From the IMG/VR virus record IMGVR_UViG_3300020119_000141, positions 1-42,706 of that record: a DNA stretch of 42,706 bases; one strand, written 5' to 3'. The position numbers and the translations under genes were made by a program. This DNA comes from a virus. Positions within the stretch are counted from its first letter, which is position 1. Each line of letters starts with the position of its first letter. The notes below the pieces were generated by a model. That model was not told where the DNA came from. It saw nothing but the letters and a program-made list of their open reading frames with translations, and made no database searches. Below are positions 11,522 through 34,876 of the stretch, one piece after another.

Positions 11522-12301
11522 TCATCGCACCTGCAAATACGGAAACGACCGCGCCACGTTTTGCGCCCCGAGCCCCAGCTTGTCGTTGAGCGCCGCCGCC
11601 ATCAGTTCAGTGCGCTCGCTCACGACCTGCACCAGCGCCGAATCAATCTTCGCCGCGTGCAGGTTCGGGTAGCGATTAATCAGCTCGATGGAAAACTGCG
11701 TGCCGTTCTTCTGCCTCACGCCAAAACCGTTTTGATAGCTCTGCCCGTCCGACGCGACGGCACCGCGCGCCTTTACAATGTCTGCCGCGGGTAAGCCTCC
11801 AGCGAACCGCTCGAGCGCAATTCCGAGCATGTCGCCAATCTGAATGATGGACTGCCGCGCGAGCCCGATTGTCCGCTTTGCCATCGCAATGACGCCCGCT
11901 TCGCCCTGGTAGAGTTTCACGCTATCTTGCGCCGCGCCCCATTCGCCGGTCGCGAGCTTCTGTTTCGTCGGCGTGAAGGCTCCCGCGTTGTGCGCCACGA
12001 CGCCCGCGAGATGATATTTGCCGCGCCGCGTCTTCACCCACACCCGCCCCTCCGGTCCGCGCACGCCGCTGTTGATGGTCTCGGCTCCCTTGGTCAGCCC
12101 GAGCTTGTTCAGCACGCGGTTCCGGCTGCGCTTCTCCGCTTGCTCCTGCGTCTGCGCGTTCACGAGTGCGGCCCAGCCACTCAGGATTTGCGCCGATTCG
12201 CCTTCAGCCCACTGCTCAACGGAGACCCCCGCGGCCTGCGTGAGCGCAAAGCCTGCCTCGGTGAATTTGCGCAGCTCGCCGGAATCAAAGCCTGATTTCA
12301 T
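11522..12301 (-). CDS. Head-tail connector or minor virion protein (gp10-like position)
   Basis: The product has 259 residues from the ATG at 12301, which overlaps the previous stop by ATGA. It is helical and Ala/Gln/Gly-rich with a basic middle segment containing RGPEGRVWVKTRRGKYH and a C terminus ending ARSFPYLQVR. Its place before the putative tail terminator corresponds to HK97 gp10-type neck proteins, but it is longer than those and no clear motif was seen. Confidence 0.5.
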   Translation of the reverse strand: MKSGFDSGELRKFTEAGFALTQAAGVSVEQWAEGESAQILSGWAALVNAQTQEQAEKRSRNRVLNKLGLTKGAETINSGVRGPEGRVWVKTRRGKYHLAGVVAHNAGAFTPTKQKLATGEWGAAQDSVKLYQGEAGVIAMAKRTIGLARQSIIQIGDMLGIALERFAGGLPAADIVKARGAVASDGQSYQNGFGVRQKNGTQFSIELINRYPNLHAAKIDSALVQVVSERTELMAAALNDKLGLGAQNVARSFPYLQVR

Positions 12302-12435
12302 TCGTCGTCGTTGTCGAACGAGCCGAACAGCGAAAGAAGCACGAGGCAAGCGACAGCCTGAATTGCCAACATAGCGAACACGCCGAGAAGAAAAGAACCC
12401 CAATTTACCGCGCCGATGATGACGCCGAAGTTCAT
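12298..12435 (-). CDS. Small single-pass membrane protein
   Basis: The product has 45 residues. One long hydrophobic helix (about 5-37, with GSFLLGVFAMLAIQAVACLVLL) is followed by an acidic tail (FDNDDE). Start and stop overlap neighbours by ATGA, which supports a real gene despite its size. A membrane protein inside the connector genes is unusual; the function is unknown. Confidence 0.6.
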   Translation of the reverse strand: MNFGVIIGAVNWGSFLLGVFAMLAIQAVACLVLLSLFGSFDNDDE

Positions 12436-12749
12436 TCGCTCGCCTCGCAGGTCATGGTGAAGTTCGCGTTGTCCGCCACACACCCGGTCAAAACCCACTT
12501 CCCGGCGAACGGGCCCTCCAACACCTGAACGATCTCGGAAGTCTTGGGTGAGGGTGGCCGCGTGAAGTTCGCCACCGGCTCCACGATGATAATTCCGTCC
12601 TTCGCCACCATTCCGGGCTCCGTCAGGTCAACATCGCCGCCCGTCGCCTTGATAACGCCCTTGTGTTCATCGTTGGTCAGCGTGTAGCGCGTCGCCATCG
12701 GTTCGGCACCTTCGTTGAAGCCTGCGGCAAATTCTTCGGCGAGGTTCAT
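12432..12749 (-). CDS. Putative head-tail joining protein
   Basis: The product has 105 residues from the ATG at 12749 (MNLAEEFAAGFNEGAEP). The C-terminal half is beta-rich (GKWVLTGCVADNANFTMTCE). Small beta proteins at this position in siphoviruses are often lambda FII-like joining proteins, and size and order agree. No diagnostic motif is present. Both ends overlap neighbours by four bases. Confidence 0.5.
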   Translation of the reverse strand: MNLAEEFAAGFNEGAEPMATRYTLTNDEHKGVIKATGGDVDLTEPGMVAKDGIIIVEPVANFTRPPSPKTSEIVQVLEGPFAGKWVLTGCVADNANFTMTCEASE

Positions 12750-12919
12750 CGGTTGTAATTGACCAAGCACACCGCTTTTTCTGGTGCCTCTGGATAGCCC
12801 AATATTGCGATGGTCTCGTCGTCCAAAAACTCCTTGTCGACGATGCGAAATGGCATCCCAAGCAATTCGCCAGCGGGCTTTGAGTGCTCCATCGCGAGCC
12901 TTATTTCATCCGTGGTCAC
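12746..12919 (-). CDS. Small hypothetical protein in the connector block
   Basis: The product has 57 residues when started at the GTG at 12919, which overlaps the preceding stop as GTGA. A GTG at 12943 would add eight residues. It contains GELLGMPFRIVDKEFLDDE and ends LVNYNR. It is not recognised. The overlaps on both sides are the main evidence that it is expressed. Confidence 0.55.
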   Translation of the reverse strand: MTTDEIRLAMEHSKPAGELLGMPFRIVDKEFLDDETIAILGYPEAPEKAVCLVNYNR

Positions 12920-13083
12920 GGCGTCCCCCTCAATTTGCACCACTCAACTAAAAAGCAAAACAATGCTCCAGCAGTGAGCGCAACACCAAGCGCCCCGCGG
13001 CCGTCGAAAAATGAAACGGCCGCGGCTGCGCAAAGAACTACTCCGAGGGCGCACGCATCACCGGCAGAAAGTTTGGCGTTCAC
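12916..13083 (-). CDS. Small membrane protein, GTG start
   Basis: The product has 55 residues (VNAKLSAGDACALGVVLC at the N terminus), with two hydrophobic segments (about 11-25 and 31-47) and a short basic end (KLRGTP). The GTG at 13083 overlaps the stop of the glycosyltransferase-FkbM gene as GTGA, and the stop overlaps the next GTG the same way. A two-helix membrane protein directly downstream of sugar and methyl transferases could help place substrates at the membrane, but this is speculation. Confidence 0.55.
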   Translation of the reverse strand: MNAKLSAGDACALGVVLCAAAAVSFFDGRGALGVALTAGALFCFLVEWCKLRGTP

Positions 13084-14570
13084 GGCGTCCCCCTCCGCAG
13101 AAACTTGATGACACCCGTGTTCTCCTTCGCAAACGACTGCCGGTTGTGCCGGAAGTGCGTCGGCGCCAAAAGCGTCTCGATGAAATACGCCGTCAATTCG
13201 TCGTAGTATTTGATCATGATGGCGTCAAAGTCGCCCAGCCGCCCGACTGCGCTCAGGGCTTCGACTATTTCGCGCTCCATCCCCGCGGCGTCAATCTTGA
13301 TGACGCGCGCCGACGGCAAGCCCTCAACGTCCTTCGCCCGCACTTCGCCCGCGTAAACCGTCGGTTTCAGGCCGTGCTTTTCGCCGATGGCGTTCGCCGT
13401 GCAGTTCAGCGACTCCATCAGCTTAGGATTCGCCTCGTAACAGTGAATCGGGCACTTCGGCCAACGCTTGCTCGCCCAGCGTGCGAAGCCTCCAACGTCC
13501 GCCCCAATGTCGATCACGTCGAACGGTTTTCCTTCCTCCGCGTAGTAGGGCACGTCGTAGCAACCGGCCAGAACGTCGCCTTGGTGCAAGTCGCCCACCG
13601 GGTATTCCCGCGGCCAGTGCCGCACCCCGACTTCCCGATGTCCACCCATCAGTCCCGGCGTCTTCTGTCCCGAGGCAATGAAGGTCCGAACGTGGTCGGG
13701 GTGGATGTGGTAGCGGTGGACAACGATGTCCACGACTTCCTCGTCCGTGAGCGTGAATTGCAGCGGATAGACGATTTTGCCGATGTGCCGAAGTTGGCTT
13801 TTGGTATCGACCCAAATGTCCCAGCCGTCGGCGCGTGCCTTCTCACAGAATTTCCAATCTTCCGACAAGTAGCGCCCTCCCTCCGCGTGCATCGGAAACA
13901 AATCCCACCGCACCGCATCCGGTGAAGGGTCTCCCCGATATTCAATCTCCGGGTGCTTCGCGATGAAGTCTTTCAGCATCTCGCGCGTGATTGCCATGGC
14001 TCCGGTCCCCGCGTGCTTGACCTTCAAATACCCGTCAGCGTCGGGAATTTCGCCGGGCAAATAGTTCACGACCCAATCAAGCGTCGGCTGTTTCTTCGGA
14101 TACAGCGCGCAGACGATCCCGCGCTTCCCCGAGCGCATCCCATCGACGACCGCGGGCAACGCCTGCGCCAGCGTGTCCGCGAGAGTAACCGGCGTCACTG
14201 CGTCGGCGAACGGCGCCAGGACCGTCCGCTCAAAGTGCCGCGGCTCGACGATGATGTCGTTGTCCAAAAACCACAGGACGTCGCAGTCTCCCTCGAGGAA
14301 CGCCGCCGCGAGATTGTTCCGAGCCCGCGCCACCCCGTCGTTCATCATGTAGCGGACGACCAACTCCGCGTTGCACGACCGCCCGATGTTGCGGACTGAT
14401 TCGCTCGTGTGCGCCTCGCTCTGCCAGTCTCGGGTGCAGAGAGCGACGAAGACTTTCAGCGGTCGCTTGACGACTTCGGGCGCTGGAATTGCCGCAATGC
14501 CGTCGTTCGGCGTGCCGAATGCGTGGACGGGCGGGGAGAGTTTGTCGGAATCGGGAAGTGTTTCGGTCAT
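13080..14570 (-). CDS. Glycosyltransferase fused to an FkbM-type methyltransferase
   Basis: The product has 496 residues from the ATG at 14570. Residues about 35-330 form a GT-A-like glycosyltransferase domain, with VLWFLDNDII near 98-107 (DND as the metal-binding DXD-type motif) and SEDWKFCEKAR. Residues about 350-496 form a SAM methyltransferase: VIDIGADVGGFARW (352-365) is the SAM-binding loop, and IKIDAAGMEREIVEAL near 424 matches the FkbM signature. A TTG at 14732 overlaps the preceding stop as TTGA and would add 54 low-complexity residues. The product probably adds an O-methylated sugar; the acceptor is unknown. Confidence 0.8.
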   Translation of the reverse strand: MTETLPDSDKLSPPVHAFGTPNDGIAAIPAPEVVKRPLKVFVALCTRDWQSEAHTSESVRNIGRSCNAELVVRYMMNDGVARARNNLAAAFLEGDCDVLWFLDNDIIVEPRHFERTVLAPFADAVTPVTLADTLAQALPAVVDGMRSGKRGIVCALYPKKQPTLDWVVNYLPGEIPDADGYLKVKHAGTGAMAITREMLKDFIAKHPEIEYRGDPSPDAVRWDLFPMHAEGGRYLSEDWKFCEKARADGWDIWVDTKSQLRHIGKIVYPLQFTLTDEEVVDIVVHRYHIHPDHVRTFIASGQKTPGLMGGHREVGVRHWPREYPVGDLHQGDVLAGCYDVPYYAEEGKPFDVIDIGADVGGFARWASKRWPKCPIHCYEANPKLMESLNCTANAIGEKHGLKPTVYAGEVRAKDVEGLPSARVIKIDAAGMEREIVEALSAVGRLGDFDAIMIKYYDELTAYFIETLLAPTHFRHNRQSFAKENTGVIKFLRRGTP

Positions 14571-14728
14571 TGGGATTGAAGTTGGGCGAGATAAATCATT
14601 TACTCCCGTCCGTGCTGACTGAACACCGGAAGGAAGTTTTGCGTAAGTGGAAAGTGTCGATTCTCCGGCGTTTCGCGAGGCGTGGGCGTTGTCGAATCTA
14701 CAGCCGCTTTGGAAGCGCGATAACTTAG

Positions 14729-15472
14729 TCAAGCAAGCCCGTTGGTGCGGATGATGGAAGCCGTGAATTCACACATTTCCTGCGGCGTTGCTTGCATATG
14801 AACCCATTCTCCATCTTTCCGAATCACGGCGAATTCGGCTGTCAGCCCTCGCCAAATGCTGACGCCACCGGCTTCTAGTGAAGCGCAAACCAGTGACTCA
14901 GGATGGAACGGACACCCCGCCTCAAGCAATGATGGAATTCGATCATAGGTCTCGAAATAGTGCCGTGCGGCAGACGTGCCAAGGATCGCAAACCTATCAT
15001 TCACCCCGCCGTAATTACCGAACCACGGAGTGAAAGCGTCGTAGGCGCCCGCCGGCCTCATGTATTTGAAGCGGTGGAAATTCAAATCCGGCCGGCAGCG
15101 CACGAACACTTCGCACTCGCCCGCCCCGTTTTCGACGGCGAACTTGTAGGCCCGCGAAAGGTGCCACAGTTGCCGCATGATGCCCTGCAACGGCCCGACT
15201 CCGGGTGTCTGTGTCGGCGTGATGCTGTAAGGCGCATGGAGCGTGTGAATCATCGGCGGCTCCGATAGCGTCGGCTGCTCGACAACCTCGATATGCACGG
15301 GCGCGGCCGGATACTTCACCCGCAGCATTTCCACCGAGGAAGCATCCGCGTCCTTCGCCACCGAGCAAAAGAAGTTCGGGTTTTCAAGCTTGGAGAATAC
15401 GGCCCAAGCGAGGTTCGGGAGGCAGCGCGCAAAAGAACGAGCTTGGCCGCTGATGATGACGGCGGTTTTCAT
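14729..15472 (-). CDS. Glycosyltransferase-like protein
   Basis: The product has 247 residues. The N terminus MKTAVIISGQARSFA and the motif VFVRCRPDLNF (R125, R127, D129) resemble a family of small GT-A-like enzymes, often viral, that open with a strand-loop and use an R-x-R-x-D pattern. Residues 150-215 contain NDRFAILGTSAA, then CPFHPESLV. It starts by ATGA overlap with a small gene and precedes the fused glycosyltransferase-FkbM gene. Transfer of a sugar to a virion or host glycan is inferred from the pairing of enzymes. Confidence 0.65.
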   Translation of the reverse strand: MKTAVIISGQARSFARCLPNLAWAVFSKLENPNFFCSVAKDADASSVEMLRVKYPAAPVHIEVVEQPTLSEPPMIHTLHAPYSITPTQTPGVGPLQGIMRQLWHLSRAYKFAVENGAGECEVFVRCRPDLNFHRFKYMRPAGAYDAFTPWFGNYGGVNDRFAILGTSAARHYFETYDRIPSLLEAGCPFHPESLVCASLEAGGVSIWRGLTAEFAVIRKDGEWVHMQATPQEMCEFTASIIRTNGLA

Positions 15473-15636
15473 TTTTCAGGTGCCCAACCAAATTTCAGCC
15501 ATATTTCGTCACCCTTTCGCGCCACTTCCACGAGTGGCATGTCGTCTCCCTCGCAACCGCCCTGTCCAACGCAGTCGCCCCACACTTCGCGGTCCGGCAT
15601 TTCCAGCAATTTCTTGGCTAATTCGTGAGAGGTCAT
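15469..15636 (-). CDS. Small acidic hypothetical protein
   Basis: The product has 55 residues from the ATG at 15636, flanked by ATGA overlaps. The pattern SHELAKKLLEMPDREVW is common to many small phage proteins of unknown role. CVGQGGCEGDD gives a possible metal-binding Cys pair. It sits between a methyltransferase and a glycosyltransferase. Function unknown. Confidence 0.6.
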   Translation of the reverse strand: MTSHELAKKLLEMPDREVWGDCVGQGGCEGDDMPLVEVARKGDEIWLKFGWAPEK

Positions 15637-16289
15637 TTTCGCGACGGGTGATTGGAAAACCAGATGCGGCCAAACAGAACCCCGTGGTGCGGCAGCAATT
15701 CCTTCACCGCCTTTTCGACGCCCCATTCTGCCGGCCCGGTGTAGTCGTCGCCCGCGAGGAAGCCGTTCGGTCGGAGTGCCACCGCCGCCGCGCCTATCTC
15801 CCGCCGCACCGTCCATTCATCATGCGACGTGTCGAGGTAAACAAAATCAAACGCATTCGGCGTCTGGAACATGTAGTTCGCCGCATCCTGCTGAACAATG
15901 CTTGCCTGGGGCGCGTTCTTCCACGCCAGCGCCAAGGTCGGCGGCTCGCCGTATCCTGCCGCCTGCCACGACATCCCGCACTTCTCCTGCGGCCAATCCG
16001 CGCACGGCTTCCCGCTGAAAAGGTCCACGCCCGTAAACTTCACGTCCGTCCGCCCCGCCAGATTAGCCGCGTCCTCCAATAGCGCCAAGTCGAGCCCGTG
16101 ATACACTCCGCACACCAACACGTCTTTGATCGCTGGATCCTTCATCACCGCATCGAAAAACGCCAGATGCGCCGTCGTCGACCATCCGGCGATCCGCTCT
16201 TTGACGACCTTGAAACGGTCGTGCACGCGCGTGGAGATACCGACCTCCAGTGAGAAGGCGTTTGTGAAGTGTGCGACTGGATAGGTCAT
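15633..16289 (-). CDS. Class I SAM-dependent methyltransferase
   Basis: The product has 218 residues. VLVCGVYHGLDLALL (57-71) is the SAM-binding glycine loop, TGVDLFSG (86-93) the second strand, and FDFVYLDTSHDEW (147-159) with NGFLAGDDY the catalytic-face strands. This is the arrangement of the Methyltransf_24 type that modifies small molecules or sugars. Start and stop overlap neighbours by four bases. It is likely to act with the neighbouring transferases; the substrate is unknown. Confidence 0.75.
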   Translation of the reverse strand: MTYPVAHFTNAFSLEVGISTRVHDRFKVVKERIAGWSTTAHLAFFDAVMKDPAIKDVLVCGVYHGLDLALLEDAANLAGRTDVKFTGVDLFSGKPCADWPQEKCGMSWQAAGYGEPPTLALAWKNAPQASIVQQDAANYMFQTPNAFDFVYLDTSHDEWTVRREIGAAAVALRPNGFLAGDDYTGPAEWGVEKAVKELLPHHGVLFGRIWFSNHPSRK

Positions 16290-16501
16290 TTTCGCGCGCC
16301 GCTTTCGCGGATAATCGCAATGTCGGATTCCGTTTTGCGAAGGCGTTTCTTTGCCACCGCATCGCGCAGAGCGTCGGTGAGTTCGTCCGTCGTGAGTCCA
16401 AATTCTGCGGCGATCTTACTCATGCTTTCGGCGAGTTGTTCCAGCTTCCGCTTGCGTTCTTCTTCGCGGCTCTGGCCTGTAAAATAATCAATGACGCTCA
16501 C
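16286..16501 (-). CDS. Helical charged hypothetical protein
   Basis: The product has 71 residues when started at the GTG at 16501, which overlaps the previous stop as GTGA. An ATG at 16558 would add 19 residues but overlaps the upstream gene deeply. The sequence is strongly helical and charged (REEERKRKLEQLAES, then LTTDELTDALRDAVAKKRLRK). It could be a small coiled-coil partner of the adjacent enzymes. Not recognised. Confidence 0.55.
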   Translation of the reverse strand: MSVIDYFTGQSREEERKRKLEQLAESMSKIAAEFGLTTDELTDALRDAVAKKRLRKTESDIAIIRESGARK

Positions 16502-16692
16502 TTCGTCGTCCCTTCGGCTTTGGGTTTGTCCGGTTGTGTTAGATTTTGAGTGAGCCACATTGTCAGCGACTCGAAAGTCTCGAAAACAAACGGGGCAGAG
16601 GACGCCATCATGTCGCGATTTCCGTATGGGATTTCATCGCGCACCACGTAGCCGTTTTGCGCCGCTTCAATCGTGATTCGGTCTTTGCTCAT
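16498..16692 (-). CDS. Small hypothetical protein
   Basis: The product has 64 residues: ITIEAAQNGYVVRDE opens a short beta-alpha fold, and VFETFESLTMWLTQNL forms a helix. This layout is shared by many small phage proteins of unknown function. Start and stop overlap neighbours by ATGA and GTGA. It lies directly after the radical SAM gene. Confidence 0.6.
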   Translation of the reverse strand: MSKDRITIEAAQNGYVVRDEIPYGNRDMMASSAPFVFETFESLTMWLTQNLTQPDKPKAEGTTK

Positions 16693-18062
16693 TTGGTCAT
16701 CCCTTCGACTTTATGCACCCCGTCCGCGTCGCGCACAAACCCCGCCGCCAGCGCGCCTGGATACGCCTTCAACGCTTCGCCCTTCGCCAGCGTGTCGAGC
16801 GGCGTCCCTTCAATCGTGGCGGTGCCGCTCAGTTGATAGGTGTCGCACCACCCGTCGCGCTGGCAGGTATTCGCGAAATCAATCGTTGCCCGCTTCTCTT
16901 CTTCGGTCTCGCCGGGGAGTCCGACCGTCAGCGTCAGATGCACCGTCATGCCAATTGAGCGGAGCCACTTCGCTGTTTCCAGCGCCTTCGGCACCTCGAG
17001 CCGCTTGTTCACGATCTCCGTCACGACCCGCTGAGAAATGGACTCAATGCCGAGTTTCACGCCAAAGCATCCGGCGTCCTTCATCGCCTGCCAGACTTCG
17101 CGCGTGCTCGTGTCGGCCCGGCACATCGCGGACCACGGGAGCCCGATCCGCTTCATCACTTCGCAAATCGCGAGCGTGTGTTTGTCGGAAAGGTTGGCGG
17201 TATCATCGTCCAGATAAATTGAGCGCAACGGAGTCCCGCGGTCGAATGCCTTCTGCATCCGGTCACGGATGAAACCCTCCACCCATTCCGGCGAATAGAA
17301 GCGCACCGCCCGCGGCTGCGTCCCGTCCGGGTCGTTCCCGGTCATCGTCGCTGGCCATGCGCAGAAGCAACATTTATACGGACAGCCGCGCGAGGTCAGA
17401 AGTTGCAGATGCGGTGCCTGCTGTCCCTGCGGGCAGGCGTCCCAATAGTTGAGTGCGCACATCTCGTCGAACTTCGGGAACGGCAGCTTATGCAATTCCT
17501 CGCGCGTGAGCATCTGAAAGGGGAGCAGACCGTTCGCGCCTCGGATGAAATCCACGGCGTTCTTCTCGTATTCGCCCTGCAACCACGCAGAGATGACCGG
17601 ACCGTCAATGCCCCATTCGCAGTTCAGCGGAGTGTGCGGACCTACGCTCCATTCGTAGGCGGTTTTGGCTGTCGGTCCGGCCACCGCAATCCGCAGCATT
17701 GGCCGCATCTTTTTGAGGTAGCATAGCAACTCAAAATCGTGGCTCCAGCTCGCCGCGCCAGTTTCCAACACCACGCAATCCGGTTTCAGTTCGGCGAAGT
17801 AGCGGAAAAACGTCTGGTAGCTCTCCCCGCGCGCGATGCTGTCCCGCAGAATGACCGTGTGCTCGCCGTCCATGGCGCGCTCGGCGTAGGCTGCGGCAGA
17901 CTGTAGGAAGAATGGCGCCGGCAGATAGTGCCCGAACTGGAATCGGTCTGGCTGGTAGCCGCTCGGCATGGTGAAGGGCCAGCGGCTTCCGGCGCGGATA
18001 CCCCTGCGCAGTTGGCCGTTTTCCTGAGTCCACCACGGCGGATTTGTGAAAAGGATCGTCAT
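16689..18062 (-). CDS. Radical SAM enzyme with an N-terminal B12-binding-like domain
   Basis: The product has 457 residues from the ATG at 18062 (ATGA overlap). The N-terminal 200 residues begin MTILFTNPPWW and contain PDCVVLETG and LRIAVAGPT, the layout of B12-binding-like domains found before radical SAM cores. The cluster SRGCPYKCCFC gives C227-x3-C231-x2-C234, the 4Fe-4S ligands. GVKLGIESISQ and LTLTVGLPGETEEE are typical later core motifs. B12-radical SAM enzymes often methylate or rearrange unactivated carbons. Whether cobalamin is bound here is uncertain, since no DxHxxG motif was seen. Confidence 0.8.
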   Translation of the reverse strand: MTILFTNPPWWTQENGQLRRGIRAGSRWPFTMPSGYQPDRFQFGHYLPAPFFLQSAAAYAERAMDGEHTVILRDSIARGESYQTFFRYFAELKPDCVVLETGAASWSHDFELLCYLKKMRPMLRIAVAGPTAKTAYEWSVGPHTPLNCEWGIDGPVISAWLQGEYEKNAVDFIRGANGLLPFQMLTREELHKLPFPKFDEMCALNYWDACPQGQQAPHLQLLTSRGCPYKCCFCAWPATMTGNDPDGTQPRAVRFYSPEWVEGFIRDRMQKAFDRGTPLRSIYLDDDTANLSDKHTLAICEVMKRIGLPWSAMCRADTSTREVWQAMKDAGCFGVKLGIESISQRVVTEIVNKRLEVPKALETAKWLRSIGMTVHLTLTVGLPGETEEEKRATIDFANTCQRDGWCDTYQLSGTATIEGTPLDTLAKGEALKAYPGALAAGFVRDADGVHKVEGMTK

Positions 18063-18589
18063 TGAGAAATTCTTTCGAGCACCGTCAGCCCCCGGCAGTT
18101 GTTCCAGTGCGCGGCGATCCGCCACGTCCGGTTATTCTCCGCGAGGAAGGGGAACAGCGCCAGATTGATGCCCGGTTTGTCGTGCTCGCCCTTCGTGCCC
18201 CATTCGATCGTGTCGTGCATGATGATGAAGCGCCGCACACTCACATGATGCCGCAACTCGGCCCGCACCTGTTCCTCGTTGTGCGCCGAATCAATCATCA
18301 GGAGGTCGCACGGCGGGATTGATTCGAGTTTCGCCGTGTCCGCGCGCATGAAGCGCCAGAGGCTTTGCACTTCGGGCGGGCAATCGAATCCGTGATTCTC
18401 GATGTCGTAACTGAAAACCGCTGCACCGCCCGCGAGGAAAGCGGACGTCGTGTTTCCCGTGCGCGTGCCGAACTCCACCACCGTCGAGCACATCGCCGCA
18501 TATTTCCGCAGCGTCGGCAAATGCTCCGTGATGTCAGGATACGGCGCTTCGCCTCTCGCGCGCTGCTGGTAAAGTTCCTCGATGGTCAT
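18059..18589 (-). CDS. SAM methyltransferase, CmcI-like
   Basis: The product has 176 residues. STVVEFGTRTGNTTSAFL (35-52) is the glycine-rich SAM loop, FSYDIE the second strand, and CDLLMIDSAHNEEQV (93-107) with FIIMHDT the later strands. This order matches the cephalosporin hydroxylase/CmcI-type and related Methyltransf_24 proteins found in polysaccharide-modification clusters. It starts and ends by ATGA overlap and precedes the radical SAM gene. A sugar or glycan substrate is inferred from the cluster. Confidence 0.75.
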   Translation of the reverse strand: MTIEELYQQRARGEAPYPDITEHLPTLRKYAAMCSTVVEFGTRTGNTTSAFLAGGAAVFSYDIENHGFDCPPEVQSLWRFMRADTAKLESIPPCDLLMIDSAHNEEQVRAELRHHVSVRRFIIMHDTIEWGTKGEHDKPGINLALFPFLAENNRTWRIAAHWNNCRGLTVLERISQ

Positions 18590-18810
18590 TTTTCGATGGC
18601 TCCATACGAGCGCGTGTTGAGTTGGTGAACCACGGGCTCGCCGGCCGTCGTGATGATTTTCGTTTTCCCCATCACGCTAACGGAGACCGTGCGATTGTTC
18701 GCCCAGTTCTCGATCACGTCCGCCTGACTTCCCCCGATGGCCTTCGCCTGCTTTTTGATTATCTGCAAAGTCTGCTTTCTCAGGCGGCAGCAAAACGGGA
18801 TTTTTCTCAT
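18586..18810 (-). CDS. Ribbon-helix-helix-like protein
   Basis: The product has 74 residues from the ATG at 18810; an ATG at 18831 is an alternative. IPFCCRLRKQTLQIIKKQAKAIGGSQADVIENW reads as a beta strand followed by two helices (shown here in full only as positions 4-36), with the AKAIGGSQADVIENW turn typical of CopG-type ribbon-helix-helix DNA-binding proteins. The last 35 residues are beta-rich. It is the first gene of the modification cluster and could regulate it. The call is based on pattern, not a strict signature. Confidence 0.45.
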   Translation of the reverse strand: MRKIPFCCRLRKQTLQIIKKQAKAIGGSQADVIENWANNRTVSVSVMGKTKIITTAGEPVVHQLNTRSYGAIEK

Positions 18811-18860: not shown

Positions 18861-19520
18861 TCAGAGTCCCAATTCCGTTTGCCGCGCCACCCGGTCCCGT
18901 TTGGCCAAATTCTCCGGCGCCCAGAGCGGTTGGAGATTCGTGTAATGGCATAAACGGTAAACATCGTTCATTGATTTCGCCGATGCTAGCGGCGTCGCGT
19001 GGTCAACGTGCCATGCCGTCCCGTAGTTCTCCCACGTCATGCCCGGTTTGAATCGCGCCTCAAGATACGCACGAACGAAACTCAGCGAGCACCCAAGAAT
19101 AGCTTTGGTTTCACGCGCTCTTTTCCCGCGGTTTCTCTTAATGGCAACCGCCAGCCGCGCGCGAAGCGACTTTTTCAAACGGCACATTGGATTTTCTTGC
19201 TCGCGGCGATACGCGCTGCGTTTCCATTCAGCTACTTTTTCCGGCTGCTCGCGCCTCTGTTTGGCGTGCCTGATTCGGGCCATTGCATTGACCTTAGCCC
19301 TGTTCTTTTCTCGCCATGCATTATCGTAGGCCCGCTTTTCTGTGTAATTGGTTTTAGGTCTGCGCCGCCATGCGGCCTTCCTTTTTTCAACATAGGCGGC
19401 GAATTTCTCATCTGTCAGCCATGACTCATAAGTTCCGTATGGCTTTACCTGATATGCCCAAAAAATCTTCCCGGTTACTGGATGCCTTTCCCCCTGTCGC
19501 CATTTTTTAACTACGTCCAT
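18861..19520 (-). CDS. HNH endonuclease (free-standing)
   Basis: The product has 219 residues from the ATG at 19520. Earlier in-frame starts would place a terminator hairpin inside the gene. The N-terminal 120 residues are very basic (Lys/Arg-rich, DNA-binding). The nuclease core is WHVDHATPLASAKSMNDVYRL, then HYTNLQPLWAPENLAKRD, giving the H-D-H / N / H pattern of HNH enzymes. The same core occurs in the protein at 27468-28328, so the two are related. Position between head genes and the modification cluster fits a homing-type insertion. Confidence 0.75.
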   Translation of the reverse strand: MDVVKKWRQGERHPVTGKIFWAYQVKPYGTYESWLTDEKFAAYVEKRKAAWRRRPKTNYTEKRAYDNAWREKNRAKVNAMARIRHAKQRREQPEKVAEWKRSAYRREQENPMCRLKKSLRARLAVAIKRNRGKRARETKAILGCSLSFVRAYLEARFKPGMTWENYGTAWHVDHATPLASAKSMNDVYRLCHYTNLQPLWAPENLAKRDRVARQTELGL

Positions 19521-19560
19521 TTTCGCAGGGTTTATTTTCTGCCGGGTGCGAGACTTGGGC

Positions 19561-19598
19561 AAACAAAAATGCCCCGCGCTTTTGACGGCGCGGGGCAT
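19561..19598 (-). terminator. Strong rho-independent terminator after the capsid genes
   Basis: ATGCCCCGCGC (19569-19579) pairs perfectly with GCGCGGGGCAT (19588-19598) over an 8-base loop. On the minus strand a T-rich run follows (TTTTTGTTT). It lies 25 bases after the stop of the probable capsid accessory gene and should separate high capsid expression from the HNH gene and modification cluster. Confidence 0.85.
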
Positions 19599-19622: not shown

Positions 19623-20018
19623 TTAAGCAGGATTATATTGTTTAATTCCAACGCCAACGACCGAGACCGGGAAGCTCGGCGAATTGGCCCCGCCAATGGT
19701 TCCATCGAGACGGATGTAGCGGTAGCCATCGCCCAACGCCCGCGGGTCGATGGTGACGGTCTGCACGCTGGTCGCATTCGCCTGCGTGTAGTTGATGTTT
19801 GCGGCAACCCAGTTGCCGTTGTCCGTCGACTTCTTGAACGCCAAATCGAGCGTCGGCGAAGTGCCGGCGGTCGCGTTGCCGATGTCGGCCCGGACAGGAA
19901 TCGCGCCCTCGTAACCGATGAGGTCAATCGAGGCGCCGTTGTAGTTGGCCGCAACTGCCACCGCGGGTTTGAACGCGAGGAAGGTGACGACATTCGGGAG
20001 ATCGTATGACTTAGGCAT
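19623..20018 (-). CDS. Probable capsid decoration/accessory protein
   Basis: The product has 131 residues from the ATG at 20018, preceded by AAGGAGA at a spacing suited to a Shine-Dalgarno site, the best one I saw in the window. The sequence is beta-rich (ASIDLIGYEGAIPVRADIG, then LGDGYRYIRLDGTIGG). Small beta proteins directly after the major capsid protein, before a strong terminator, are commonly decoration or stabilisation proteins. The family is not recognised; the role is inferred from order and expression signals. Confidence 0.6.
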   Translation of the reverse strand: MPKSYDLPNVVTFLAFKPAVAVAANYNGASIDLIGYEGAIPVRADIGNATAGTSPTLDLAFKKSTDNGNWVAANINYTQANATSVQTVTIDPRALGDGYRYIRLDGTIGGANSPSFPVSVVGVGIKQYNPA

Positions 20019-20040: not shown

Positions 20041-21858
20041 TTACTGGGCTCCCGAGTCCGTCGAGATGGCGAAGGAGGGCCAGTGGCGAACAATGAAGTC
20101 CGTCATTAGGTTCACCGTCACCACGACTTGGTTTTTCGCGGCCTGTGAGTAGGGGTCCACGACGATGTCGTAGCCGGCCCAATCGCAGAACATCGCCTGA
20201 CCCCACGCACCGAGGATCGTCCGGTTGGCATACGTGCCAGTGGTCGAAATCTGGTTCGTGATCGGGGTCGGGTAGCCGATGGACATTCCCTCGTCATTCG
20301 TGAGAAAGACGGGGTAGTTCGGAACCTGCGGGATGCTCTGCCACTTGGCGCGCACCGTCGGGTTCGTGAGCCACTGGATGGTCCCCAAGTCGGCGTTCGC
20401 CGTCTGAATCGCCGCCATGAATGCGAGCTGATTCGCCCGAGTCGCCTGAGTGCCCCACGTCAGCGACGTGATGTTGTTCCCGCCGCCCGTGGAATCGGTC
20501 GTCGGCCCGTTCAGGATGCCGCGCGGCTGCACGCCGCCCGTCCCCTGAATGCCGGCGAGATCCTTCGCCAGAGCGATGATGCGGACGTGGTCGTCGCGAA
20601 TCAGCGCCTCGACATCAAGCGTGGACTGCGCGAGCAGTTGCTTGTTGTAGGCCGTCTGCGCGGCGAGACGCTTCGGAGTCGCCATGACCTGCGCGAACGC
20701 CTGATTGCTTGCCGTCACCGTGCCGGCTTCGTCGAGCCAGTAGGCGGTTGCGGCGCCGCCCTGCCGCGGGATGGCGACGTTGCCTTGCAACCCGGAGAGC
20801 GTGCCCACCCCAAGGGAGGTCAGCAGCGCCCGGTTGCGCAGCAATTCGATGAAGGAACCTCCGAGAAAGTCCTCCGCGATGAGTGCGCCGGCCGACGTGA
20901 AGTTGTTGGCCAGCAAGTCGCGTTGCAACGACTTCCCATAAGCCGTCCACGCGAGGGATGGACTCACGCGGAGCATTGCGGCCATCAGCTCACGGTCGCC
21001 GTGCATGGCCACGTCGTGCGGCATGAAGAAGCCGTTTTGCTGCGGCTCGCGCTTGTAGAGCTTCGCGGAGGCTTCCGACGCCTCGCGCTCCAAGCCTTCG
21101 AGCGGCTGGAGATTCGCGATGCGGTTGATCGCGCGTTGCAGCGAATAACGCCGCCTTTCCGCGCGATTCATGCCGATGGTCGGTGGTGCCGCGATGGGCT
21201 CGGCGCGGGCGAACTCCGTCAGGCAGACGTGCGCGAAGGCGTCGCGGGTTTCGTTTTCCGCCAGCGCCTTGTTGATGCGCTCCTGCGGGACGTTGAACGC
21301 TTTTCCGAGAGAGATGATCTCCTGGATGCGGTTATCGGCAGGCGGCGCTTTGCGCTCCTGCGCTACGACCTCGGTTTTCTTCTCCTCGGTCTTGGTTTCG
21401 GTTTCGAGAGGCATGATGCGTGAATTGGTTTTGGTTTCTGTGCGCTCCTTGCTGCGCCCCACGCCGACGGAGTCATCGGCCGGGATGCTGACGAGGCTGA
21501 TTTCATAGGGCTCCCATTCCGTCACCCGGTAGCTGTCCCCAGCCTCCGAGTCCGTTTCCGCGAGCACCATGTTTTTGACGCGATACCCGACCGAGACCAG
21601 CGAGCGGATACCGTCGATCACGTCCTGAAAGATTTCCTGGGCGCGGGCACTTTTGGAGAAGCGCACGACTGCCCTGCATTTCCCGCCTTCGATTTTGGCC
21701 GACTCGACCACGCCGATTTGGTCGCGCGAGTTGTGGTCAAGGAGCAGAGCCCCGCCGTTGCGGAGCCGCTTCAAATCGCAAGCGGTTGACGAACACTCCA
21801 ACACTTCCGAGCCGAACCATCGCTCAACCGGCGTCTCCGAAGCGAACGACAGCGGCAC
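20041..21858 (-). CDS. Fused prohead protease and HK97-type major capsid protein
   Basis: The product has 605 residues, starting with GTG at 21858. Residues 1-145 resemble the HK97-type prohead protease: LLLDHNSRDQIGVV holds the catalytic His (H42) and IRSLVSVGYRV the Ser (probably S89), with YEISLVSIPADDSV following. Residues about 150-270 are charged and helical, like a scaffolding or delta domain. Residues about 290-605 are the capsid fold (GGSFIELLRNRALLTSLG, then GNVAIPRQGGAATAYWLDE, ending FIVRHWPSFAISTDSGAQ). Fusion of protease and shell is known in other phages. The start lies 12 bases after a 40-residue gene. Confidence 0.9.
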   Translation of the reverse strand: MPLSFASETPVERWFGSEVLECSSTACDLKRLRNGGALLLDHNSRDQIGVVESAKIEGGKCRAVVRFSKSARAQEIFQDVIDGIRSLVSVGYRVKNMVLAETDSEAGDSYRVTEWEPYEISLVSIPADDSVGVGRSKERTETKTNSRIMPLETETKTEEKKTEVVAQERKAPPADNRIQEIISLGKAFNVPQERINKALAENETRDAFAHVCLTEFARAEPIAAPPTIGMNRAERRRYSLQRAINRIANLQPLEGLEREASEASAKLYKREPQQNGFFMPHDVAMHGDRELMAAMLRVSPSLAWTAYGKSLQRDLLANNFTSAGALIAEDFLGGSFIELLRNRALLTSLGVGTLSGLQGNVAIPRQGGAATAYWLDEAGTVTASNQAFAQVMATPKRLAAQTAYNKQLLAQSTLDVEALIRDDHVRIIALAKDLAGIQGTGGVQPRGILNGPTTDSTGGGNNITSLTWGTQATRANQLAFMAAIQTANADLGTIQWLTNPTVRAKWQSIPQVPNYPVFLTNDEGMSIGYPTPITNQISTTGTYANRTILGAWGQAMFCDWAGYDIVVDPYSQAAKNQVVVTVNLMTDFIVRHWPSFAISTDSGAQ

Positions 21859-22073: not shown

Positions 22074-23726
22074 CTACTTGGCCGGTTTATTCTTTGCCTT
22101 CCCCTCGCCGCCGTTGTCGTTTTCGTCGCCGTCGGGCTCCGGTTTTTCGGGCATGGCTCCAGCCACGGGCGGCAGTTCGACGCTGTGCTGTTCGGCGAAC
22201 TCCTGCTCCTTCTCCTGCTCCAAAATCGTTTCCTCAAAGGTGGACTGTGACGATTCCTCGATTACCTCCGACCGGGATTTCAGACGGTTGTCGACGGCAA
22301 TGACGTTCGCGTTCGCGTCCTTTTCCGGGTCCACCCATGGCCAGCGGCGCGGGCGGAATTTGTGGTTGCTGAACTTTTCCAGCTTGGAAAACGGGAGTGA
22401 CGTTCCGGTCGTCGGGTCTTTGAGCGAACCGTTCGCCAGCGCGATTTGCAGCCAGAACAGGAAAACCGGCGTCTCGTGATGGTAAATCCACCATGTTTGC
22501 AGTGCCTTGAAATGCTCACGATCCTCCAACAGTCCGGCCCGGATGCTGGAGAAATTTACTTCGGTCAGGTCGTTCGCGATGGCGTAGTAGCTCATGTCGA
22601 GCCCGGCTCCGATTCGGCGGATGCGCGACTTCACGAAATCAGGATATTGCTCGTGCGGATACGCCGGATCCCATTTCTCGAACTTGAGGCCGGGCACCTG
22701 CGACAAGTCCTCGATGAGCCCCGCCTCCGCGTCCATCGAGCGATCCCCGTCCTTCGGTTGCTCGCCCGTGTAGCCTTCGCCCGGTTCGTTGAAATCCCGC
22801 ATGAACCATCCCATTTTGGCCGCTCCGGTGCGCGCGGCCACGATCGCCGCTTCGTCGTAACCATCGAGCATCTTGAGATCGCGCATGATGCCGTGAAACC
22901 ATGTGCAGTCCCGCACCTGAGTAATCCGCTGCTTCTTGAACGGGTGGATGAAGTCCTTCGCGTCGTGAAAATCCGAGAGGTAGCCGTCCGTATTCCACCA
23001 CATTTGATCGCCAGGGTGGGCTTTCAAAATCCAGTAGCCTTGCGGGCGCATGTAGCCATCAACCTGCACTCCCATGCGAACCTCGGAGAGAATCTTTCCG
23101 CCGTTCCCTTGGTCGGCCACGCGGATCACTTCGTTGCGCATGTCGTCGCACATGTCGGCTTCAAGCATTTGCAAGGCACACCCAAACTCGTTATTCGCCG
23201 TCACGACTTTGCGGCTCAACATGTCGCCGTCGCGCGCGGTGCTCCGAAGGGCGAGCCGTCCGCCCTCGTTCAGCGACATGCCGCCCGACACGTAAGGGTT
23301 TTTCTTCCATTTCGTGTAGGCGCTCTCGATGACCGCCGCGTCCATTTCATCGAGCACGTAAACGAGCCGTTTCGCCTTCGGGTCTTTTCGCCATTCCCCA
23401 GCTAGCGACGAAAACGTCATGCCGTGGTGGTCGTAAACGTTGTCCTCGAGACGCGAAAGGTAGCGCAGCGTGTAGGGCTCGTTCCGCTCCAACTCACGCG
23501 CCCGACCGCGCAGTGTGCGCAAACGTGTCCGCATTTCCGCATCGCCTGTCGTAAGCGGCGACGCCCAGTCCTGCGTCAGCCGGTCGTATTGGGCTCCCGA
23601 GTACGACCGTTTTTTCAGTTCAGCATCCCGCACCGCCCGCATTGAAATTGGCCGCGGGAAAGACTGCGCCGGCTTCGCGGTGAACGCGGCGATGGCTGAT
23701 TTCAGCCGTTGGCGGAAGGTCGGCAT
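22074..23726 (-). CDS. Portal protein (lambda-type)
   Basis: The product has 550 residues from the ATG at 23726, which overlaps the previous stop (TGATG). Features of lambda-family portals are the early ARELERNEPYTLRYLSRLEDNV segment (substrate of the conserved R/N-rich region), WWNTDGYLSDFHDAKDFIHPF, FHGIMRDLKMLDGYDEAAIVAARTGA, and the Asp/Glu/Lys-rich tail. It lies after the terminase and before protease-capsid, as expected. The dodecameric portal is the DNA entry channel and the terminase docking site. Confidence 0.85.
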   Translation of the reverse strand: MPTFRQRLKSAIAAFTAKPAQSFPRPISMRAVRDAELKKRSYSGAQYDRLTQDWASPLTTGDAEMRTRLRTLRGRARELERNEPYTLRYLSRLEDNVYDHHGMTFSSLAGEWRKDPKAKRLVYVLDEMDAAVIESAYTKWKKNPYVSGGMSLNEGGRLALRSTARDGDMLSRKVVTANNEFGCALQMLEADMCDDMRNEVIRVADQGNGGKILSEVRMGVQVDGYMRPQGYWILKAHPGDQMWWNTDGYLSDFHDAKDFIHPFKKQRITQVRDCTWFHGIMRDLKMLDGYDEAAIVAARTGAAKMGWFMRDFNEPGEGYTGEQPKDGDRSMDAEAGLIEDLSQVPGLKFEKWDPAYPHEQYPDFVKSRIRRIGAGLDMSYYAIANDLTEVNFSSIRAGLLEDREHFKALQTWWIYHHETPVFLFWLQIALANGSLKDPTTGTSLPFSKLEKFSNHKFRPRRWPWVDPEKDANANVIAVDNRLKSRSEVIEESSQSTFEETILEQEKEQEFAEQHSVELPPVAGAMPEKPEPDGDENDNGGEGKAKNKPAK

Positions 23727-23917
23727 CAGGGTTTTGTGTTCACGAGCGCCACGACGCAAAGCGCAAGAAAGTGCTGATAACTCCACCCGCGTTTAATGAT
23801 AAGCCCGGCCAAATCTTTGACGATCGGATTATTCGCCTTCGCCCATGCGAGATGCGCTTCGAGGTTGGCGGTGTCCTCACACTGCCGCACGAGGTTGGCC
23901 AGTTCTTCCGCGTTCAT
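23726..23917 (-). CDS. Small hypothetical protein before the portal
   Basis: The product has 63 residues. The N-terminal half is a charged helix (AEELANLVRQCEDTANLEAH) and the C-terminal half ends in a hydrophobic segment (YQHFLALCVVALVNTKP). Both ends overlap neighbours by TGATG. The lambda equivalent of this position is the head-tail joining protein W, but the sequence lacks a recognisable match. Confidence 0.55.
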   Translation of the reverse strand: MNAEELANLVRQCEDTANLEAHLAWAKANNPIVKDLAGLIIKRGWSYQHFLALCVVALVNTKP

Positions 23918-30881: not shown

Positions 30882-31793
30882 TTATTCGCAAGAAAGGTAT
30901 CCAACGTGACAGGCTGGCGAAGCGTTCAACTCAGCTTCGCTCATGCGCTCTTTTCCGCCGCGCTTCGTGTGAGCCCATTCGACCACGCTACGAATTGAGG
31001 CTGTGCCCCACAGTTTACCGTCTGAATCCGTGTAGGTCAGATCGCGAAAGCGCGCGGTTGCTGTCTTCGCGTGAAAGAATGTCGAGATGCGCCCGTTCGC
31101 CGCGTGCCGTTTCTCTTCGGCTTCGATGGCATCAATCTTTTCCGGGCGCGTATTCGCCACCAATCGGATTTCTTCTTTCCCGCAGTTGATGCACGGCCAG
31201 CAACCAACGCGCCGCGCACCCAACGCATACAGCGGATTGAGTGGCACGTTGTATTCCCGGTGAATCGCCAGCACGTCCGCAAGTGTCCAATCGCGGAGCG
31301 GCGTCCATTCCTCGCAGCCCCAAAAGTCTGAAAAACCGCGTGTGGGTTGGTCTGCCATTTTCCGTCCACGCTCATCCGATTCGTCGATGCGCTTCCCGTT
31401 AATCAAAACAACGTCCTCGCCCGCTGCCCATTGCCGCTCAACCCACCGCTTCAGTGGTTCGATCTTCAACTCGATGGAGCAGAACTGCGCGACGCGAGAT
31501 GGAAACCGCCCTTTCTTGAAACAGAGGTCGAAGAATTGCAGGGGCGGAATCAGCGTCTCGATTCCGAACGGAACGCCCGCTGCTTCTACAACCTGCCGTA
31601 AAACTTCAAGGTGTTGATACGTCAGCGCGTCCTCGTTGCCCGTATCGCTAAACGTGATGCGTAGTCGATTGCGCGGCAACCCGGATTTGAACAGTGCCCA
31701 CAGCAGCGCAGCCGCCGAATCTTTGCCTGTGGAAATCCCCACGTTGTAAAGCGGTTCGCGCGTGTATGGGAAAACTGTCTGAGTGTGAATCAT
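30882..31793 (-). CDS. PAPS-reductase-like PP-loop enzyme
   Basis: The product has 303 residues. NVGISTGKDSAAALLWALF (17-35) is the PP-loop of adenine-nucleotide alpha hydrolases. FSDTGNEDALTYQHL and FCSIELKIEPLKRWV are typical PAPS-reductase-family segments. GCWPCINCGKEEIRL near residue 195 is the Cys motif of phage members. Relatives include the phosphorothioation protein DndC and sulfate-assimilation reductases. No other Dnd gene is present, so DNA sulfur modification is unproven; thiol or nucleotide metabolism is equally possible. Confidence 0.8.
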   Translation of the reverse strand: MIHTQTVFPYTREPLYNVGISTGKDSAAALLWALFKSGLPRNRLRITFSDTGNEDALTYQHLEVLRQVVEAAGVPFGIETLIPPLQFFDLCFKKGRFPSRVAQFCSIELKIEPLKRWVERQWAAGEDVVLINGKRIDESDERGRKMADQPTRGFSDFWGCEEWTPLRDWTLADVLAIHREYNVPLNPLYALGARRVGCWPCINCGKEEIRLVANTRPEKIDAIEAEEKRHAANGRISTFFHAKTATARFRDLTYTDSDGKLWGTASIRSVVEWAHTKRGGKERMSEAELNASPACHVGYLSCE

Positions 31794-34198: not shown

Positions 34199-34876
34199 TC
34201 AGGGCTCGCGGACACTCAGGGAGTAGCGCACGCCCGCCCGCCTCGCGATGGCGAGAAAGAGCGTCACGAGGATGTCGAGGGTGGTCAGCTCGACCGACAA
34301 TTCCGGTTTGGCTGGTCGACCGTTGAGGGCTGGGGTGGCCTCGCGGATGATTAGGCGTTGCGGCGTCTTCAACTTGGCGGCGTCGGCCGGGTCTCGAGGA
34401 GTGATGACAAAGGAGAAGGCGAGCGCGTTGTGCAGCCCGGCCGCGATTTCCCGCGGGGTCAGGTTGCGCATGTCCTCGCCTTCTTCGAGGGCGTACTGGC
34501 CGATGGGCAGCTCGGTCAGGATGGAATCCAAAAGTGCGGCGGCGCCGGCGGGGTCGTGCTCGGTCGCCACCTTGGGCGCGATCTTCTCCCATTCTCCGGG
34601 CGCTCCGTCCGTCACGGCAGACAGGCGGTAGGGTGTGCCGACGGCTTCACCGAACCGCTCCACCAGAAACATCAGGGCTTGCACGTGCGCCCCGCGCTTC
34701 CCGATGAGGATCGGTTCGTCCTCCGGGGAACAGGTAACGATGAAAAGCAGGTGCGCTGGCGTGGTCGGCGTCGCCGCAATGTCCCGCGCCATCACCTTCA
34801 AGTCTGCCGGGTGCTCCACGAAGGCAGAGAGGAGGTCGCGCAAAAGAACCGTGATTTGCTGTGGGGCTGTGGTCAT
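34199..34876 (-). CDS. KH-domain (KhpA-like) RNA-binding protein
   Basis: The product has 225 residues. Residues about 20-80 resemble the bacterial KH domain of the YlqC/KhpA type: HPADLKVMARDIA, then LLFIVTCSPEDEPILIGKRG, in which GKRG is the GxxG loop, followed by AHVQALMFLVERFG. The remaining 145 residues are not recognised (LTPREIAAGLHNALAF, then LTTLDILVTLFLAIARRAG). It may bind phage or host RNA and influence translation. Its first 14 codons are duplicated at 35406-35447. Confidence 0.65.
   Translation of the reverse strand: MTTAPQQITVLLRDLLSAFVEHPADLKVMARDIAATPTTPAHLLFIVTCSPEDEPILIGKRGAHVQALMFLVERFGEAVGTPYRLSAVTDGAPGEWEKIAPKVATEHDPAGAAALLDSILTELPIGQYALEEGEDMRNLTPREIAAGLHNALAFSFVITPRDPADAAKLKTPQRLIIREATPALNGRPAKPELSVELTTLDILVTLFLAIARRAGVRYSLSVREP

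Follow-up and report, generated by a model that had tools for sequence, protein, structure and literature searches.

We analysed a stretch of viral DNA of 42,706 nucleotides (positions 1 to 42,706 of IMG/VR virus record IMGVR_UViG_3300020119_000141; hereafter the window) from an uncultivated tailed phage, in which a run of 11 genes on the minus strand (18810-12746) separates the capsid genes from the virion genes that come next. Ordered from high to low coordinates, as all minus-strand genes are here, the run comprises s75, MT176, a radical S-adenosylmethionine (SAM) enzyme, s64, s71, MT218, s55, GT247, GT2-FkbM, a membrane peptide and s65. Glycosyltransferase and methyltransferase genes thus lie inside the virion structural operon, which is the layout of Corndog-like phages. 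We refer to the run as the module and consider what it modifies.

On recomputation, each of 13 consecutive junctions, from s75 through s65, g103 and s66 to a 259-amino-acid virion-region gene at 12301, was a 4-base overlap. The overlap letters at module junctions are ATGA, GTGA and TTGA (the last only with a TTG start at 14732); the junction between the membrane peptide and s65, read from the sequence, is GTGA at 12919-12916. Thirteen such junctions in succession indicate translational coupling, not chance spacing. The start of GT2-FkbM is either TTG 14732, with a 4-base overlap, or ATG 14570, with a 158-base gap. The roughly 158 additional bases (14571-14731) are open in frame from TTG 14732 and have no repeat elsewhere in the window. 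They are missing from the nearest relative, IMG/VR contig 3300032421_000023 (loci L002 and L046; capsid 85% identical), where the homologue starts directly on an ATGA junction, so we regard them as an extra stretch in the window genome. A previous interpretation made from the letters of this DNA (the sequence-only reading) had described 4-base overlaps joining the cluster to head-tail genes, with a 158-base exception unless TTG was used; the recomputed junctions agree, and the exception is real with ATG 14570. Its estimate of at least seven modification-type genes between capsid and connector genes fits the 11-gene run, although the "connector" genes are identified by synteny and themselves matched no profile. 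Of the two membrane proteins that it counted, one lies inside the run, while the second, s66 (12435-12298), lies outside.

Enzymes and neighbouring genes

All features in this section are on the minus strand. GT247 (14729-15472) gave no significant Pfam match by itself. Its AlphaFold model (predicted local distance difference test, pLDDT, 89.7) has a GT-A glycosyltransferase fold, matching GT6 enzymes by Foldseek (E 6e-6, probability 1.00), collagen galactosyltransferase COLGALT1 (VIA Z 12.8, root-mean-square deviation 3.6, 195 residues) and chlorovirus MT325 M177L (E 2e-12). The protein is DUF7796-like: that family was matched by two scanned cellular neighbour proteins (best E 5e-14), which we take to be the GT247 homologues of loci L054 and L060 from Opitutaceae. 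The adjoining gene (13080-14732, or from ATG 14570) encodes a GT2-like glycosyltransferase (PF13641, E 1.4e-6) fused to an FkbM-like methyltransferase domain at its C-terminus. The latter scored 32.6 bits against TIGR01444 (E 9e-8; cut-off 37.7), over model positions 2-39 only, and a PDB sequence search with the whole protein gave no useful match.

The radical SAM enzyme (16689-18062; PF04055, E 8e-16) has an N-terminal Rossmann-like domain and the cluster motif GCPYKCCFC, that is, C-x3-C-x2-C, whose three cysteines are invariant in 34 aligned homologues. Its AlphaFold model (pLDDT 90) matched AprD4 best among PDB structures (E 1.4e-17). AprD4 is a radical SAM diol dehydratase whose substrate is an aminosugar or small aminoglycoside. 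The next structural matches were cobalamin-dependent methylases, and the B12 enzymes TsrM, MgmA and OxsB are alike in fold. The reaction may be a deoxygenation, a C-methylation or a similar change to a sugar skeleton or its hydroxyls. The best NCBIfam match was HpnJ at 117.9 bits, far under the cut-off of 577.6, and we rejected that equivalog assignment.

MT218 (15633-16289) is a Methyltransf_24 methyltransferase (PF13578, E 6e-10), and it also weakly matches a PHROG named DNA methyltransferase. MT176 (18059-18589) is probably a SAM methyltransferase of the same type (PF13578, E 1e-4), scoring 23.3 bits against a Pfam gathering cut-off of 26.3, whereas its homologue in locus L136 scores above it (32.9 bits, E 1e-7). 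The sequence-only reading had named most of these enzymes well: its radical SAM enzyme with C-x3-C-x2-C, its Methyltransf_24-like enzyme (MT218) and its glycosyltransferase-like protein (GT247) are borne out by profiles, motif and model. Its label "CmcI-like" for a methyltransferase is more exactly given as Methyltransf_24.

The remaining genes of the run are small. The first, s75 (18586-18810), has a homologue at the same place in L046; s64 (16498-16692) and s71 (16286-16501) belong to no recognised family, and none was found in relatives. To these are added s55 (15469-15636) and s65 (12746-12919), likewise of unknown family, and the membrane protein (12916-13083; hydropathy peak 1.92), which is absent from L046. 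Upstream of the module lie a gpA-type terminase gene, the portal gene (22074-23786; phrog_21, E 1e-77) and the gene for the major capsid protein fused to a head-maturation protease (20041-21858; phrog_617, E 1e-115), the likely glycan acceptor. Directly 3' of the capsid gene is the small conserved gene g156 (19623-20018; phrog_5707, E 3e-9), possibly encoding a decoration protein and thus an alternative acceptor; its position is kept in L002, L007, L135, L225, L199 and L201. An HNH/endonuclease VII-like gene (18861-19598; phrog_1035, E 1e-8) is inserted between g156 and the module and is absent from L046. Downstream, the first virion-region gene is g103 (12432-12749), which overlaps s65 by 4 bases, is 75% identical in L046 and had no PHROG match; the membrane protein s66 (12298-12435) follows.

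Recurrence in other viruses and in cells

The nearest relative holds MT176 (76% identical), the radical SAM enzyme, GT247 and GT-FkbM between g156 and g103 in the same order as the window. The cluster is therefore kept in a close relative, the opposite of what the sequence-only reading had named among the grounds for abandoning its proposal. Approximate ratios of nonsynonymous to synonymous substitution (dN/dS) between the two were 0.08 for MT176, 0.25 for the radical SAM enzyme, 0.22 for GT247 and 0.18 for GT-FkbM, next to 0.16 for the capsid; the values are rough, with dS near saturation, and exclude the portal. All four shared enzymes are under purifying selection by these sequence estimates, with values like those of the virion genes measured alongside. 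L046 lacks MT218, the HNH gene, the membrane peptide and every small gene but s75. The four shared enzymes form the core of the island and the other genes are accessory.

Profile searches recovered 45 viral contigs with the radical SAM enzyme and 59 loci with GT247, together giving 53 distinct GT247 sequences. Terminase, portal or capsid genes share the locus for 41 of the 53, a radical SAM gene is present with 35, and the viruses have at least four capsid types (phrog_617, 283, 1005 and 3437). The arrangements fall into several layouts. In layout A (the window, L002 and L007) the order is capsid, g156 and module, and in A' (L135) it is terminase, portal, capsid, g156, GT2, radical SAM, MT218 and GT247; L225, also A', has the same slot and ends in homologues of the window's downstream genes. 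A large group, B, has small and large terminase, radical SAM, MT176, GT247, a small gene, portal, another gene, capsid (phrog_283) and GT2, with the GT2-like gene starting about 40-120 bases past the capsid stop in nearly every contig having both. Layout C (L151 to L160) runs from capsid (phrog_1005) through a double glycosyltransferase, a small gene, a methyltransferase, radical SAM, GT247 and sometimes an epimerase to GT2; the L156 module adds a nucleotide-sugar epimerase and further glycosyltransferases. In L150, radical SAM, a methyltransferase, GT247 and GT2 are followed by a phrog_3437 capsid and tail genes. A further group, D (L148, L166, L167 and L169), is placed differently and is weighed below. 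The capsid and GT2-like genes of four phrog_617-type relatives have nothing more than g156 or a short stretch between them, and MT218 homologues occur near GT247 in L003, L004, L135, L138, L149 and L165. The module therefore recurs beside virion genes, including those of unrelated capsids, supporting the earlier view of a cluster wired into the virion structural operon.

The slot between g156 and GT247 also accommodates other enzymes. In L199 (4935-8004) and L201 (1965-5696) the radical SAM enzyme and methyltransferases are replaced by a Zn-alcohol dehydrogenase, an E1/thiamine pyrophosphate (TPP) enzyme pair (a transketolase-type domain and a dehydrogenase E1 component) and one protein of unknown family, with GT247 and the GT2-like gene kept. 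Nothing else hints so strongly as this exchange that the transferases are constant and the other enzymes tailor the sugar. Among 50,697 phage records in INPHARED, tblastn with the radical SAM, GT247 and group B MT176 proteins gave no match; the GT2-FkbM protein and its group B homologue gave weak matches, mainly in T4-like phages.

In cells, GT247 was found near only 2 of 41 dereplicated radical SAM homologues, both from Opitutaceae. In these two loci (L054:7915-12051 and L060:7637-12054) the radical SAM-GT247 genes come directly after two tandem flagellin genes. Flagellin is another abundant self-assembling surface protein, and the loci may glycosylate it. A GT247 search of 273 genomes from the order of the Opitutaceae genome G006 returned the known genome and two weak matches only, leaving the flagellin link no wider, and among 289 genomes of the phylum the capsid homologues were not close enough to identify a host. 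The other cellular radical SAM homologues adjoin nucleotide-sugar epimerases or dehydratases, GT2 enzymes and methyltransferases. In a quick tree with several long branches, 18 of 20 viral radical SAM representatives were separated from cells by one marked branch, and group D fell beside Opitutaceae. The split indicates a mostly viral family rather than a fresh capture from a host. Divergence of the radical SAM enzyme and GT247 was correlated (Mantel r 0.61, 0 of 5000 permutations; 0.33 for pairs below 75% identity), which suggests that they have for the most part moved as a pair.

Five viral radical SAM genes (L007:4650-6485, L165:8540-10696, L166:2275-4596, L167:10001-11743 and L169:1245-3098) carry an intein at one identical site, inside the cluster motif between the lysine and the second cysteine (GCPYK / CCFC). 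Three of these inteins have an HNH-like endonuclease region and those of L167 and L169 are shortened; the carriers span three different virus groups. Elsewhere, genes resembling phosphoadenosine phosphosulfate reductase occur in the window (30882-31793, assigned by eye) and in the group D virus L167 (611-2089), with no detectable direct similarity between the two. The window also encodes a protein with a KH-like GxxG motif (34199-34876), to which we assigned by eye a Pfam KhpA/KhpB KH domain match in the scanned set.

Function and rival explanations

Glycan modification is a well-supported prediction for the module from sequence and structure models, because GT247 has a GT-A fold, the cellular radical SAM homologues neighbour sugar enzymes and one viral group adds an epimerase. 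The sequence-only reading had left two options, decoration of virions or modification of host surface sugars; its glycan component stands on this footing, and from the gene arrangement we infer the virion as the target. We propose that the run is a virion-protein glycosylation module in which constant transferases are combined with exchangeable sugar-tailoring enzymes, and give this a probability of about 0.6. In the order of steps we envisage, the two GT-A glycosyltransferases, GT247 and GT2-FkbM, would form the constant part and use host nucleotide sugars. The variable part, represented here by the two Methyltransf_24 methyltransferases, the FkbM domain and the radical SAM enzyme, would tailor the sugar, the methyltransferases by O-methylation and tailoring also by altering the carbon skeleton or hydroxyls. 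The acceptor would be a virion protein, most likely the major capsid protein or g156, both encoded just ahead of the module. Translational coupling would deliver the enzymes while capsid subunits are made, and the end product would be a methylated, unusual, probably radical-modified glycan on the particle, which might serve in masking, stability or adhesion.

Several observations weigh against this proposal. Of the 53 GT247 loci, 18 have no radical SAM gene, in some cases because the locus breaks off first (L188 shares a contig with L130, which has one), so the enzyme is not essential to the module. Group D modules are not next to head genes: they sit between RusA resolvase/replication genes and unknown genes, and the virion protein downstream of the radical SAM-GT247 pair is some 6 kb away. 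The GT2-like family occurs among replication genes in the T4-like phages phiM12 and OC, and adjacency to capsid genes is thus not a general property of that family. On the cellular side, the flagellin link comes from two related genomes, and most radical SAM homologues lie in polysaccharide-type clusters without flagellin.

That last context leads to the main rival, in which the module acts late in infection on the polysaccharide of the host surface, perhaps to prevent superinfection or re-adsorption of progeny. Nucleotide-sugar epimerases and GT2 enzymes, as found beside the cellular homologues, are typical of surface polysaccharide clusters, and SAR11 myophage glycosyltransferases have been interpreted in this way (PMC7029224). 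We nevertheless consider it unlikely: the module enzymes have no strong membrane segment, no flippase or Gtr-type membrane-anchored transferase was recognised in the module, and an enzyme set directed at the host surface would not be expected to be coupled again and again to head and packaging genes in viruses whose capsids differ.

Other targets, namely phage DNA bases, a small-molecule product or tRNA, are improbable. Nucleic acids are substrates of some radical SAM and glycosyltransferase enzymes, MT218 has its weak match to a DNA methyltransferase, and AprD4, nearest in fold, works on a small aminoglycoside. However, the scan of the other proteins revealed no recognisable base-hypermodification genes, and the DNA methyltransferase matches in the scanned set come from genes outside the module; both the glycan-synthesis context in cells and the placement in the virion operon also point away from such targets. 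Still less probable is a passive cargo island, with genes inserting at permissive spots between head genes and functionally unlinked to the virion. The slot does accept insertions, as s64, s71, s55, the membrane peptide, s65 and the HNH gene, all missing from L046, attest. Yet purifying selection on the four shared enzymes, their conserved order, the 4-base coupling and the fact that radical SAM and GT247 diverge in step from virus to virus are at odds with cargo.

We hold a broader proposal tentatively, at somewhat under even odds: many unrelated uncultivated tailed phages may share one exchangeable virion-glycosylation slot. GT247 and the GT2-like enzyme would stay by the capsid genes while tailoring enzymes are swapped (radical SAM and methyltransferases, a TPP-enzyme pair with alcohol dehydrogenase, or an epimerase with extra transferases), varying the capsid sugar coat by cassette exchange and bringing radical SAM chemistry to a virion glycan. 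GT247 beside capsid or terminase genes would then be a sequence marker predicting virion glycosylation in metagenomic viruses. The exchange raises the question of whether phages change their capsid sugars by swapping tailoring cassettes, and the flagellin-linked Opitutaceae counterpart offers a possible cellular route to the chemistry.

Comparison with known systems

To our knowledge, few cultured phages, most of them mycobacteriophages, provide the known examples of virion glycosylation. The closest parallel in layout is provided by the Cluster O mycobacteriophages Corndog and Firecracker, which carry an O-methyltransferase and three glycosyltransferases between the portal and the capsid-protease/capsid genes (PMC4351075). 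A passage in PMC11600133, citing Freeman 2023, states that these enzymes modify capsid and tail-tube proteins, and a similar statement on virion-protein modification exists for related phages (PMC11256854). Like the module, those clusters consist of tightly coupled modification genes, an O-methyltransferase with several transferases, at a corresponding place in the virion operon; unlike it, they have no radical SAM enzyme. Profiles of MT176, MT218, GT247 and the GT2-like family matched none of Firecracker gp33-gp36 (0 of 4 enzymes), which makes the parallel functional rather than one of homologous clusters. The sequence-only reading had mentioned phage capsid glycosylation and phage glycosyltransferases as known, but no precedent for this enzyme set; given the Corndog-type clusters (PMC4351075), the layout is less new than it supposed. 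A literature search, mostly without subscription journals, found no paper describing this enzyme set in a virion operon.

Chlorovirus PBCV-1 offers a second comparison, by function: A064R, a glycosyltransferase-methyltransferase fusion, and A061L assemble the terminal part of the capsid-protein glycan and methylate it (PMC9614988), as a fusion plus extra methyltransferase might do here. PBCV-1 differs in being a eukaryotic algal virus with an N-glycan and no radical SAM enzyme. Bacterial flagellin glycosylation islands resemble the module through the Opitutaceae radical SAM and GT247 homologues behind tandem flagellin genes, and differ in being cellular, in having another acceptor and in being represented by one related genome pair. 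For the radical SAM enzyme itself, the AprD4/HpnJ type is the nearest reference, AprD4 as the closest solved structure and HpnJ at a score far below its cut-off. Thus, the idea of virion glycosylation is known; what is new is the enzyme set, its occurrence in phages that differ in capsid type and the exchange of cassettes.

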